NCBI GenBank assembly: GCA_029243025.1
Contig: JAQWSU010000045.1
Location: 496,001 to 560,000, forward strand
Length of the DNA stretch: 64,000 nt
Direction: 5' to 3'
Origin: Pirellulaceae bacterium
Lineage (GTDB): Bacteria > Planctomycetota > Planctomycetia > Pirellulales > Pirellulaceae
Shown here: one piece after another, positions 34,935-40,301 of the stretch
How the letters are laid out: every line of letters begins with the position of its first letter
How positions within the stretch are numbered: the first letter of the stretch is position 1
Notes under the pieces: model-generated
Databases searched by the model: none
Seen by the model: the letters and a program-made list of their open reading frames with translations, nothing else
Told to the model about the DNA's origin: nothing
Translations under genes and position numbers: made by a program

Positions 34935-37900
34935 TTAGTCTGCAGGGAGAAGATGTGTTTCAGCAGCTTTCGCGAGCTCCGAAACAGAAGGCACTCCCGC
35001 TTGCACGTGCAAGCGCAAGCCGTCGCGATCCACGAGAATAGACGACGGAAGTGCATCCGACTTGGTTTCCGATCGAATCAACGCCAACACGCGCTGGCGG
35101 GTCGTATTATCGATGTTGGCCAGCAACTGATAATGGGGCTGATACTTATCCAAATAGCTTTTGAAATCTTCCCTTGTTTCAATCGGGTCAGCGGGAACCG
35201 CCCAGATCGTTAATTGTTCCGTGGAAAATGCCTCGCGCAGCCGTGCTATTTGCGGCAGTTGACGCTTGCAAGCTTCGCACCAGGTTGCGGTAGTCACAAT
35301 CAAGTGTAATTGAGCACGATCGACATCCGACAGAAGGGCCATGATCTCCGTCTCAAACCGATCCACGGTGGCTGCTGCCGGGGTAGTCGTTGCCCTGTAA
35401 GCCCGTTTTTCAAACAGTTGCCCATCGACGGCTTCTTCGTAAGCTATCAGCAATTGATTAGCAGCCAGTTTTTCGATCGACGTTGATTTCCCAGAAGGCC
35501 AGTTAACTACCAAGTTGTCGATCGTATCGGACTGTCCAAGACCGACCAACATGGTGTCCGAATTTTGAGCAGCAAAGCCTTCCCCACATCGCAACTCACG
35601 CATCAGTTTTAGCTCACCCGCAGCAATCCGGACGCGTACACCGTAGGCGTCACGAGCACTGTATTGGTCAGTTGAGTGCGATTGTTGGTTACCGCCGACA
35701 AATCGTATTGCGATAAACCTTCCGTTGAAAGAATCGACCTCTCGCATCCGATTCCGATACAAGTTCAGAAGCGGTCGATTTGCATTCGTGAGTGCAAGAT
35801 CAAACCAACCATCATGATCATAATCCCAAACTGCAAAAGCTCGACCATCAGCAACATTATCAACGCCCGAGATGGCCGAGACATCCTTGAATCGTGTGCC
35901 CGCTTGATTGAGAAATAAACAATTTCGTTCGTGCCCACTGAAGGAATGCCAGCGTAACTGGCCATCGACCGTCTCTTTACCGCGACTGTAACGAGTCGCC
36001 ATCAGATCATCGATTTCACCGGTGAGCGGATCAAGCTTCCACTGTGGGCTTCTGCGAAAGTGATTCTGCGACAGGGTTTCATCGGAACGCACGACCGTGC
36101 GCCAGAAATTGCTTCACAAATCGACATCGGTTTCGTATTCAGCCGGAGCTGTGTAGTAACCGCTGGCTACATAAATATCTTGGAACCCATCGTTATTAAA
36201 ATCGGCCAACTGTCCTCCCCACGCCCAACCAGCCTGCGCGACGGACAATTGCGGCGAAGACAAGCCTGACACCAAGTCGAAACGACCGTTCGTTTGTCGA
36301 TACAAATAATTACCAGTCGCAAGTCGCGTGATGCGATGATCGAGTCCATCGACCAACCGTGTGATGCGCCGTCCCGCCTTGCTATACATATTACTCACAT
36401 ACAAATCAGGCTGGCCATCATTGTCATAGTCGCCCCATGAAGCGCCCATCGCAAAACCAAGCTTATCGATCCCTGACTGTTCGGATACATCACTCCATCC
36501 GTTGGATCCATCGTTGCGAAAAAGATGGTCCGGTGCAAAATCATTCGCCACATACAGATCGACATCGCCGTCGGAATCATAATCCGACCAGGTGGCTTGA
36601 AACGAGTTTCGCCAAACAGCTAATTGCTCGTTAGTCGCCGCAGGTCGAAATCGACCATCGCCCACATTTTCCAGCAACAGGTTGGGAGGACCAATTTGGT
36701 TGATAAAAGAACGGTTTCCTTGTTGGTGTCGTTGTTTCAGTTCCGCCGATTGTTGATCGGTCAGATAGCCATGAATTCGATGTTTGGGATTCGACAGGTC
36801 AGCGTCGATTCGACGACTCACATCGTCTTGATGGTAAGTCGAAAAATAAACATCGATTAATCCGTCATTATTAAAATCAGCCGCCGATACCGAGGTGGCT
36901 TCGTAGGGCAACTCCCCTGCCACCCATTGGCCTGATCGTTCAATGAAGCGACCATTTTCGTTCACCCAATACTGACTACGCTCAAGACTTCTAGCCAGCA
37001 TCAGATCCTTGTCACCATCATTGTCGAAGTCAACGAAAACCGCCGCATTCGAACGTCCATCAATGTCCAATCCGTACTGAGCAGCAACCTCCTCAAAAGT
37101 CCCATCAGCTTGATTCCGCAATAGTAAGTTCTTTCCCCAACGAACAGTCAGATACAAATCGTCAAATCCATCCTGGTCAATGTCGACAACTGCGATGCCC
37201 GGGTGATGGGCCGTTGAGATCGGAAAAAAACGATCATCGCTATGATTGCCTGATAAGGAAGCACGTCGTTGCGGATAGTAATGTCGCGTCGCATATTGCC
37301 AATGCTTCGATTCTTCGAATTGAAGTCGAGTCGACGTATCCGAAATTGCAGACTTCAACTGGTCTTCGAAGAGCAGTTGAGGACTTTCAAGCGTCTTGAG
37401 CTGCTCCAGTCTCCAACCTGCAATCAGCCATTGATTTCTCACCCTTTCCCAATTCAACTGCAAGCGCGCTTGACAGTCTGCCCAATGACCGTTGAGTAAG
37501 CGAGCTCGGCCTCGGAATTTAATGCGGGTGGCAAACTGACTGTTCGATGAACTCATCCTGTGGGCATCAATAAATGCGAATTTTGCGTTTTCGAAATAGG
37601 CGACATTCGCCAAGAATCGCTTCCACAAGTTAAGCTGCTCGCGGCTTTGAATGGACGGCTTCGAAACACAGGTCCATGTTTGATCTGGCGCAGGCACCTG
37701 CCTTGAAGGTGGATCAGGTACCAGATCGGTTACGAGCACCCGATCAGCAAACAAAGCTCTGGCCCGCTGGTCCGGTAATTTCAAATTGTGAATACTCGCT
37801 GAAAGCCGTTGCATGCTCGGCGTCAACGCGATAATCAGCTCTTCATTGCCCACGATCTGAGCTACCGGATCAGGAAGCATTGGAGTCGTCGGCTCGTCCG

Positions 37901-37970
37901 CAACAGGTGGGGCACAACCGATGGCGAAGATCAAAAAACTGCCCGCTGCCATGCTGAATTTACAACACAT
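34935..37970 (-). CDS. FG-GAP / ASPIC-UnbV / thioredoxin lipoprotein with in-frame TGA (candidate selenoprotein)
   Basis: Read through one TGA, the product is 1011 residues. The N-terminus has lipobox-like FAIGC. Residues 230-615 contain FG-GAP calcium loops (DIDQDGFDD, DFDNDGDKD, DFNNDGLID, DYDSDGDVD, DYDNDGQPD, DFNNDGFQD). The TGA at 36116-36114 is residue 619, in DVDL-x-SNFWRTVV. Beyond it the same frame gives another FG-GAP loop (DYDHDGWFD), an ASPIC/UnbV domain (about 775-845) and a thioredoxin-like domain with WCEAC (C898, C901). Simple gene calling would split it into 36114-38012 and a GTG-started 34935-36092. The ATG at 37970 has GGAGAG upstream; a TTG at 38012 is also open. An ordinary nonsense mutation is the main alternative to Sec insertion. 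Confidence 0.75.
36087..36116 (-). promoter_or_regulatory. Candidate bacterial SECIS element next to the in-frame TGA
   Basis: Reading the minus strand, TGA (36116-36114) is followed by 11 bases and then GCGCAC (36102-36097), loop GGUC (36096-36093) and GUGCGU (36092-36087). The six pairs are complete, with one G-U at the base; one more G-U is possible below it. The loop starts 17 bases after the TGA. Bacterial SECIS elements have a short upper stem, a GGUC-type apical loop that SelB recognises, and about this spacing. A U (36104) bulges out just below, and a UUUC/GAAA lower stem can form, which also recalls known elements. Confidence 0.65.
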
Positions 37971-38249: not shown

Positions 38250-40301
38250 ATGAGATTTTGCAACTCCCCACGATACACGACAATTTGCACGATCGCATTG
38301 CTGGCCGTTTATTCGACCAGCCCAGTCGCCGCCATCGAAGTCGCGGGTGAACTCTTTGTAAATTTAGATGCTTCCACATTTTCGACAGGTGATGCTGCCT
38401 GGAGTAATGCGGGCAGCTACGTTGACTTCGAAGCGGTTAACGGTCCCGAAGCTGGACTCATCGAAACAACACCTGCCATCTTTTTCAACGGCAGCAACGC
38501 ATTCGTCGGTGGCTCTCTGGAAGAACCGATCGAAGCTCCCGAGGGACTGACCGGTTTCGACCCAACTCGAACGATTGAAGTTTGGGCGTTGAATCCACAA
38601 ATCAATGCCGAAGAAACGCTTGTGTCATGGGGTAAACGAGGCGGCCCTGACGGGACCAACATGGCGTTCAACTATGGAAATCACGGAAACTTCGGAGCCG
38701 TCGGCCATTGGGGTGGCGGTGGACCCGATTTAGGCTGGATTGATGACGAATTCACGGCTGGAGCTCCGGACAAAAACGAGTGGCATCATCTGGTTTACAC
38801 CTATGCGGGTGAGGACGATCCGTATGCTCGAGTCTATTCAGACGGAGAACTCTGGTACGAAGAGGACATGGATACATGGGGGGGCCTCGACACCTACCCC
38901 GATCCAGCGATCGCCATTGCCGCACAATGGGAAAATGATGGATTAACGCTCAACACCGGCTTGATGGGAAATCTAGCAATTGGTCGTGTGCGAATTCATG
39001 ACGGAGTGTTGACCGACGATCAAATCATGGCGAATTACGATGAAGAGAAGGCTGCATTCGTCAACCCGGGTGAAAAACCTCCCGTACCCGCTGAGTCTTT
39101 GCGTTTCTCTCCGATTCACCGTTACGACTTCTCTAACGACGTCGCTGACTTAATTGGCAATGCGAATGGCGTGATCATCGACGAAGGTAGCACCCAAAAT
39201 TTCGAGTTCGGCAATGGGAAACTTGATCTCTCAGAAAATTCTGGGGAACGCTCAGCCGAGATCACCGAAGATGCCTATGTCGATCTGCCGAACGGGATCG
39301 TTTCCGCCGCCGCGAACTCCAATTCAAGCGGAGCCGTCACCTTCGAGTTCTGGGCATCTGTCTCAGAGATACATACCTGGCAACGATTCGGTGACTTTGG
39401 CAATAGCAATAATGGTGAGGACACTTCCGACGGCGGTAGTGACGCCGACTATTTGCTGATCACACCGAATTCAGGACGATACAACAATGGTCTTGAGATC
39501 ACCAACCATCCTGCCGGCGGTCTAGAACCTAACGTAGGAGCGACGGGTCCCTTTCCAATCGACGAAGATGTTCACGTGGTGGCCGTTTACGATCACGAAG
39601 ACGATTCGAATGGTGCGAACGGATCCATGCATCTGTATATGGATGGTGAATTGATCGGGTCCAATGAATTGGCTGCTGCTTTTGACCTCAGATCAATAGA
39701 AGACGAAAACAATTGGCTAGGTCGATCCCAATGGAATGACCCTGTTTTCGACGGATCGTACGATGAGTTTCGCATCTATGATTATGCTCTCACGGAAGGT
39801 GAAGTCATTGGCAATTACAACTCGGGGGCTGACACTGTCAATACAGGCGGCGGCTCGGGGGACTACAATAACGACGGATTAGTCAACGCGGCAGATGTAA
39901 ATCTGCAAGCCGAAGCGATCGCCTCGACGGAACCGGATTTGGCATTGTTTGATGAGAACAACGACCAAGTGGTCAACGATGTTGACCGTTATATTTGGGT
40001 GCATGAACATGCTCAAACCTGGATTGGTGATGCAAACCTCGACGGGGAATTTAACAGTAGTGATCTTGTCACTGTTTTCAGCGCCGCCAAATATGAGTCA
40101 GGGCAAGCAGCCCTTTGGGAAGAAGGGGATTGGAACGGCGACCAGCTCTTCAGCAGCGGCGATCTTGTCGCAGCATTTAGTGACGGTGGCTATGACAGTG
40201 GCGCCCGACCTCCCGCGGCTGTTATTCCAGAGCCATCAAGCATGTTTTTGACACTGGCCGGGCTGCTGTCAGTCGGACTTGCAATCAGACGCCGACGGTA
40301 G
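38250..40301 (+). CDS. Secreted LamG-domain PEP-CTERM protein with dockerin-like module
   Basis: The 683-residue product has a signal peptide (CTIALLAVYSTSPVAA) and two concanavalin-like LamG domains (about 30-275 and 285-525; markers FDPTRTIEVWALN, NEWHHLVYTY, GAVTFEFWAS, HVVAVYDHEDD, SYDEFRIYDYALTEGEV). A dockerin-like block with four calcium loops follows (GDYNNDGLVNAADV, DENNDQVVNDVD, GDANLDGEFNSSDL, GDWNGDQLFSSGDL). It ends in IPEPSSMFLTLAGLLSVGLAIRRRR, cut here only as description: PEP motif, hydrophobic helix and arginines, the PEP-CTERM signal. It is likely a surface lectin-type protein. Confidence 0.92.
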   Translation: MRFCNSPRYTTICTIALLAVYSTSPVAAIEVAGELFVNLDASTFSTGDAAWSNAGSYVDFEAVNGPEAGLIETTPAIFFNGSNAFVGGSLEEPIEAPEGLTGFDPTRTIEVWALNPQINAEETLVSWGKRGGPDGTNMAFNYGNHGNFGAVGHWGGGGPDLGWIDDEFTAGAPDKNEWHHLVYTYAGEDDPYARVYSDGELWYEEDMDTWGGLDTYPDPAIAIAAQWENDGLTLNTGLMGNLAIGRVRIHDGVLTDDQIMANYDEEKAAFVNPGEKPPVPAESLRFSPIHRYDFSNDVADLIGNANGVIIDEGSTQNFEFGNGKLDLSENSGERSAEITEDAYVDLPNGIVSAAANSNSSGAVTFEFWASVSEIHTWQRFGDFGNSNNGEDTSDGGSDADYLLITPNSGRYNNGLEITNHPAGGLEPNVGATGPFPIDEDVHVVAVYDHEDDSNGANGSMHLYMDGELIGSNELAAAFDLRSIEDENNWLGRSQWNDPVFDGSYDEFRIYDYALTEGEVIGNYNSGADTVNTGGGSGDYNNDGLVNAADVNLQAEAIASTEPDLALFDENNDQVVNDVDRYIWVHEHAQTWIGDANLDGEFNSSDLVTVFSAAKYESGQAALWEEGDWNGDQLFSSGDLVAAFSDGGYDSGARPPAAVIPEPSSMFLTLAGLLSVGLAIRRRR

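Follow-up and report, generated by a model that had tools for sequence, protein, structure and literature searches.

Does a TGA in the middle of a 3 kb bacterial gene end a reading frame, or does it encode an amino acid, and what might that residue do in a protein of the UnbV/FG-GAP family? The question is raised by a gene in the window, by which we mean the whole 64,000-nucleotide stretch analysed from a Pirellulaceae bacterium (assembly GCA_029243025.1), where the initial annotation had pointed to one in-frame TGA followed by a SECIS-like hairpin and had proposed a candidate selenoprotein. The frame agrees with that description, in that TGA 36114-36116 is its only stop before the terminal TAA, and the TGA is codon 619, as claimed, when counting starts at ATG 37970. 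The start codon is uncertain, TTG 38012 being also in frame; read from this TTG, the frame spans 1025 residues with the TGA as sole interruption. The sequence on both sides of the TGA, described as family-like, is conserved as protein among homologues upstream and downstream, and the FG-GAP repeats and ASPIC domain both score above their Pfam cut-offs. The elements of the gene are as follows:

34935..37970, reverse strand: UnbV/FG-GAP gene with putative selenocysteine (Sec), from ATG 37970 to TAA 34935-34937
37914..37970, reverse strand: probable lipoprotein signal peptide ending at AIGC (assigned by eye)
36846..37031, reverse strand: best of four FG-GAP_3 stretches of the propeller, residues 328-389 (Pfam)
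36114..36116, reverse strand: in-frame TGA, read as selenocysteine
35448..35648, reverse strand: UnbV_ASPIC domain, residues 789-855 (Pfam)
35019..35333, reverse strand: AhpC-TSA thioredoxin-like domain, residues 894-998 (Pfam; TlpA/ResA match in sequence and fold)
35268..35279, reverse strand: CEAC (CxxC) motif in the thioredoxin-like domain, 279 residues past the TGA

Mechanical ORF calling splits this gene into two ORFs, as it does four relatives (L193, L194, L201 and L206), so that annotations of the family probably show two fragments in place of each gene.

The gene proved to be one of many. When 183 residues around the site were used to search its own genome, many further places with a single TGA came up; at least 24 genes, the window gene included, share the TGA column (L022-L044 and L048), and one paralogue (L045) has Cys there. 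The proposal of a single candidate thus held as to selenocysteine and failed as to isolation, the candidate belonging instead to a large family. Over all loci, 99 of 125 site rows are TGA. The 119 genes scoring above 55 bits, which come from Planctomycetota, Verrucomicrobiota and Acidobacteriota, comprise 97 with Sec (U), eight with Glu, five with Cys, L045 included, four with Ala, two each with Arg and Gln, and one with Asp; six rows below 55 bits were dropped as possibly misaligned (L158 C, L136 G, L127 T, L102 E, and L099 U twice). Homologues at position 619 are therefore mostly TGA, and where Sec is absent, Cys is outnumbered by Glu, Ala, Gln, Arg and Asp taken together. In genomes of the same taxonomic family, 68 of 199 have a match at E ≤ 1e-9 and, among the matches listed, all carry one TGA. 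Across the phylum, 114 of 392 genomes match the site region; 19 of the matches listed lack a stop, and each of the 18 examined among these has one of E, D, A, Q, R and C at the site. TGA loci were also found in Verrucomicrobiota (L086, L091, L092, L095 and L097) and Acidobacteriota (L084, L090 and L094), whereas a plasmid search with the 183-residue region gave no match. Two distant relatives, L096 and L099, have TGA at or near the site with another peptide following it (UVPFW, and U then LPY, respectively), and the planctomycete L081 and L052, the latter from the window's genus, have a 300-base stretch in common.

If the UGA is decoded as selenocysteine, an RNA signal would be expected close behind it, and the window has a hairpin there:

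36087..36102, reverse strand: bacterial SECIS-like hairpin GCGCAC-GGUC-GUGCGU, nucleotides 15-20 pairing with 25-30 as counted from the T of TGA
36093..36096, reverse strand: its apical loop GGUC, nucleotides 21-24

The stem starts 11 nucleotides past the TGA, just where it had been placed, although it is not quite the perfect stem described: the outermost pair is G-U and the others are Watson-Crick. Its shape and spacing had been likened to those of a bacterial SECIS, and they do agree with the published bSECIS model (loop of 3-9 nt with G in one of the first two positions, stem of 4-16 bp, spacing of 16-37 nt, minimum free energy at or below -7.5 kcal/mol), the window hairpin having the loop GGUC, six pairs, a loop 17 nt past the TGA and, over 21 nt, a folding energy of -9.0 kcal/mol. 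By itself it is no better than chance in its 63-nt context (z = -1.11, with 28 of 200 shuffles doing as well), and an Rfam search of the site gave no credible match, with two sub-threshold matches only. What raises the hairpin well above chance is the recurrence of TGA in the same column of 24 own-genome genes, together with local codon freezing and, in sister genes, covariation of the stem.

Codon freezing is clearest in 70 TPR-type TGA genes, whose synonymous codons are fixed from codon -1 to about +11, with P values that ignore relatedness and take the other columns of the same genes as control. Leu at -1 is TTG in 58 of 68 (background 0.21), Ser at +1 is AGT or AGC in 68 of 68, Gln at +6 is CAG in 53 of 59, Val at +7 is GTC in 56 of 70, Val at +8 is GTG in all 53 cases (background 0.32, P 4e-27), and Ser at +9 is TCG in 62 of 65 (background 0.25, P 3e-34); the same amino acid is thus always AGT or AGC at +1 and never so at +9. 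Columns -2 to -22 of these genes have no codon bias beyond P about 0.01. Their stem (nt 16-20 with 26-30) is fully paired in 64 of the 70, a set that for codon and stem counts includes L230, really of the UxC class described below and omitted from the covariation test. In the 67 distinct sequences, 98.5% of stem cells are paired, compared with 10-64% when the stem is slid along the same sequences; columns 18/28 occur as A-U, G-U, C-G and G-C, and columns 20/26 as A-U, G-C and G-U. Cells with double changes number 11 against 1.7 in shuffles, none of 500 shuffles being as high, while two of the five covariation measures are not extreme (double-change pairs, reached by 171 of 500 shuffles, and further pair types, by 36 of 500). 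Certain compensating stem changes alter the protein, for example V to A or T. Nineteen thioredoxin-type genes also have frozen codons, with the stem offset by one base and complete in 11, and GGTC in 17; this smaller set has no covariation signal and no compensatory changes. The remaining eight TGA genes (seven of the UxC class and L096) have neither main stem at these positions and form other hairpins, and it is possible that the seven of the eight UxC-class genes found in this group use another SECIS geometry. That class, with PDGUNC or PDGUTC at the site, comprises L074-L077, L080, L104, L229 and L230 and has TGTC, not GGTC, in the loop columns.

Loss of the TGA goes with loss of the loop. 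GGTC stands in the loop columns of 70 of 97 Sec genes and in none of 17 genes with E, D, A, Q or R, so that the hairpin accompanies the TGA and its GGUC loop is gone where the site is not TGA. This is one of the points on which the initial annotation had said that its proposal could be refuted, and the result supports the proposal. Among the same 17 genes, five pair four of the five first-stem positions and two pair all six of the second stem, and the -7.5 kcal/mol limit is reached by 93 of 97 Sec genes and also by 13 of 22 others; the TGA class is marked by loop and codon choice more than by stem energy. The verrucomicrobial L083, L085 and L087 are full-length relatives in which Glu occupies the site and the loop reads CAUG or UAUG instead of GGUC. 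To judge from these patterns of substitution, the hairpin is under RNA-level selection in the family.

A conserved hairpin and a fixed GTG eight codons past the TGA could also be taken to start a separate C-terminal protein, the gene being two genes joined by translational restart. The 53 of 53 Val codons that are GTG in TPR-type genes fit this idea, and mechanical ORF calling does begin the second half of the window gene at that GTG; yet the stretch from TGA to GTG (S x x W R) is conserved at the protein level, and in homologues with E, D, A or Q the frame runs on through this peptide uninterrupted. Where a sister gene has Ala, Thr or Leu instead of Val at +8, the codon is GCG, ACG or CTG and the stem is compensated, all of which leaves restart very improbable.

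The genome of the window (8.35 Mb in 60 contigs, 95.95% complete with 1.4% contamination) was searched for selA, selB, selC and selD, and all of the machinery is present. selA (570 bits) adjoins selB (365 bits), and the same contig (C2) carries a tRNA-Sec (64.7 bits with Rfam; anticodon tca by ARAGORN). selD has an in-frame TGA of its own, in the peptide CAGUAGK, and behind it a GGU-loop hairpin of -7.2 kcal/mol, an internal positive control slightly short of the -7.5 limit. A second Rfam tRNA-Sec match above the gathering score, on contig C21 (L015), is tRNA-Ser by ARAGORN, and only the C2 gene was therefore counted; the Rfam tRNA-Sec model also fires on ordinary tRNAs, control genomes included. 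Across the 199 genomes of the same family, selA is above cut-off in 102. Of the 41 in which a TGA copy was verified (those among the matches listed, plus locus L229), 37 have it, against 65 of the 158 others, which include three genomes with strong matches but no codon listed (G055, G069 and G119); the Fisher value is 5.6e-9 with relatedness ignored. Three of the four verified-TGA genomes without selA have selB (G065, G118 and G151), and in the fourth, G063, an assembly 82% complete in 1270 contigs, neither selA nor selB was found beside the TGA copies.

It is hardly credible, then, that a general suppressor or a changed code reads UGA as some other amino acid. The varied replacement residues at the site would suit such a reading, but TGA is still a stop in this genome, since it ends eight of the 24 own TGA genes, and it likewise ends 10 of 27 long frames in the window; the Sec machinery is complete, and under general reassignment the codon choice and stem conservation would be purposeless. 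That the TGA is the nonsense mutation of a pseudogene or a misread codon has a negligible probability, for although the window hairpin alone is not significant and broken copies such as the frameshifted L026 exist, the same column holds TGA in 24 genes of this genome and in many other genomes, a recurrence that refutes it, and codon freezing and covariation around the TGA also stand against it. In that frameshifted copy the lesion lies in the ASPIC region, and a thioredoxin-like stretch with WCQPC is found downstream in another frame (L195 5192-7345). Comparative sequence evidence thus makes it almost certain that the window TGA codes for selenocysteine, with SelB and Sec-tRNA presumably reading the UGA owing to the hairpin just downstream.

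What such a residue might do depends on where it sits. An AlphaFold2 model, computed from a 15-row alignment of 993 residues with Cys for Sec, has a pLDDT of 81.1 and a pTM of 0.85, the five models ranging from 65 to 81. The site, residue 601, is predicted to be the second residue of a helix (600-611) that follows a strand (595-599), blocks with pLDDT 70-77. The best solved-structure match to the model is murine CRTAC1 (9etn; Z 37.3, rmsd 2.3 over 458 residues), and the propeller dominates structure searches to the extent that the absence of other folds carries no weight. The C-terminal domain matches ResA (1st9) and TlpA (1jfu) in sequence and fold, and TPR repeats follow the thioredoxin domain in the three long forms scanned. 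The window protein is a probably exported CRTAC1-like FG-GAP/UnbV propeller with a TlpA/ResA-like thioredoxin domain.

The residue at the site and the cysteines elsewhere in these proteins vary together. With a C-terminal domain model built from own-genome copies, 117 of the 119 genes were long enough downstream (L052 and L174 are too short). Where a thioredoxin domain is present, a CxxC lies at +230 to +320 in 75 of 76 Sec genes and in two of 15 others (Fisher 7e-13, relatedness ignored), the exceptions being L178, with Sec and no CxxC, and L083 and L087, with Glu and the CxxC kept. Sec genes scored without the domain have instead a Cys two residues after Sec (UxC) in 17 of 19 cases, against 0 of 76 with it; the two exceptions are L061, with neither the domain nor UxC, and the frameshifted L026. 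On a tree that excludes the site and the thioredoxin domain, Sec and non-Sec change at least six times, and Sec/CxxC yields three independent pairs, with a mean of 2.3 in the expected direction, none opposite, and a median p of 0.5, a coupling that cannot reach significance with only three such pairs. The Sec/CxxC/UxC pattern suggests a resolving-thiol arrangement; L061 is the main exception to this idea.

As a mechanism, the Sec near the start of the predicted propeller helix would serve as a redox centre, exchanging electrons with the CxxC of the fused TlpA/ResA-like domain in forms such as the window gene and, in most forms without that domain, with the Cys of UxC. We give this two-centre oxidoreductase mechanism a slightly better than even chance. 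Glu, Ala or Gln in place of Sec is not what a strictly redox Sec predicts, and L178, L061, L083 and L087 do not fit.

The loops of FG-GAP repeats are calcium binders, and a decoded Sec could instead be a metal ligand or bind substrate on the propeller, with no CxxC as redox partner. This is rather unlikely, though a serious contender: the Glu, Gln and Asp replacements are residues able to bind metals and the independent Sec/CxxC events are few, against which stand the loss of CxxC in 13 of 15 non-Sec genes with a thioredoxin domain, the UxC in most Sec genes without one, and the Ala or Arg at other sites. Decoding driven by SelB competes with termination in general, and the UGA might on that account act as a selenium-dependent switch, giving a truncated propeller when selenium is lacking and the full-length protein when it is available; we consider this improbable, and it would add to Sec decoding, not compete with it.

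The surroundings of these genes bear on where the two-centre oxidoreductase, if such it is, would act. The window gene has a divergent neighbour:

38250..40301, forward strand: surface protein with Laminin_G_3 and PEP-CTERM

This neighbour also has a dockerin match slightly below the Pfam cut-off. As a disulfide substrate it is unsupported, since the absence of Cys after residue 60 makes it no obvious one. In the genome, 14 of the 24 TGA genes have one of 123 PEP-CTERM ORFs no more than 1 kb away, where 3.6 would be expected; 5000 random placements on the same contigs never gave more than 10. This test omits matches below the cut-off, those above it only with neighbours, and one with an internal TGA (C9). 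When a motif scan of the stretches and the window is added, the count rises to 19 of 24; L024, L025 and L048 adjoin another TGA gene that has a PEP-CTERM neighbour, L027 is 2.1 kb from a PEP-CTERM gene, and none was found for L031. The PEP-CTERM partners often carry Laminin_G_3, CBM9 or dockerin domains (window and L191-L208). The Cys paralogue has no PEP-CTERM gene within its 12 kb stretch. About four of 12 non-TGA UnbV/FG-GAP places also have, by eye, a PEP-CTERM ORF at a distance of roughly 2 kb or less, and these surface-protein genes may thus be associated with the family as a whole and not with Sec. Nor is the pairing universal, since among 17 other loci scanned, several of them short, only L081 and L097 have a PEP-CTERM neighbour. 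The adjacent PEP-CTERM genes point to the cell envelope.

That this family was not known to include selenoproteins, as the initial annotation supposed, stands as regards a May 2026 review that catalogues 119 prokaryotic selenoprotein families (PMC13188914) and NCBIfam 20.0, in which none was found, and is qualified by a possible earlier listing among the planctomycete selenoprotein candidates in supplementary table S9 of PMC4807772, a paper from which planctomycete selenoproteins are known in general. No row of Table 1 of the review names an FG-GAP, UnbV or CRTAC family, and its main text lacks the words FG-GAP, UnbV, VCBS, CRTAC and planctomyc. A term search found the same words in neither the deep-Sep paper nor a 2022 review, and none of a similar set in a 2016 survey or a 2008 ocean study (PMC12013277, PMC9312934, PMC2398784, PMC5029168). 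Among the papers listed by full-text searches of open-licence PubMed Central, none links bacterial selenoproteins with UnbV, ASPIC or FG-GAP in its title or the opening of its abstract. NCBIfam 20.0 gave no match in the site region for the window protein and four others (for one of these, among the best 25 of 43 families), its ResA-like WAxxUGC model touching the thioredoxin domain only, far under the cut-off. The way in which the Sec is decoded is standard for bacteria; the carrier family and its architecture are what we did not find listed in these sources.

Measured against that review, the catalogue gains a selenoprotein family that is widespread, occurring in Planctomycetota, Verrucomicrobiota and Acidobacteriota, and whose fold is off the 2026 list. 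Its 24 copies in a single genome are many when set against the largest whole bacterial selenoproteomes on record, of 57 and 63 genes (PMC13188914). Homologues with and without Sec, SECIS, CxxC and UxC form a natural experiment that makes a role of Sec outside the thioredoxin fold testable. Tentatively, and at somewhat less than even likelihood, a broader picture could be drawn of a superfamily of propeller-borne Sec proteins acting as two-centre oxidoreductases with their own thioredoxin domains, in which a bacterium such as this would run about two dozen parallel selenium-dependent envelope systems, many of them paired with PEP-CTERM proteins, and would rank among the most selenoprotein-rich bacteria.

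Three known groups come nearest to the family. With CRTAC1 and the UnbV-ASPIC proteins (PF13517 and PF07593) the family has in common the FG-GAP propeller and ASPIC domain, with the CRTAC1 fold in the model, and differs from them in the Sec of its predicted propeller helix, the fused thioredoxin-like domain and, often, TPR repeats. Like the TlpA/ResA oxidoreductases it has a C-terminal domain that matches them in sequence and fold and keeps the CxxC, whereas here the thioredoxin-like part is one domain of a large propeller protein. In common with known bacterial selenoproteins it has the UGA, a stem-loop with an early loop G at 16-37 nt spacing, and SelA, SelB, SelD and tRNA-Sec; what sets it apart from them is the set of 24 sister genes in one genome and, in contrast to the UxxC and UGC thioredoxin-like selenoproteins of Table 1 of the review (PMC13188914), a Sec that lies outside the thioredoxin domain.
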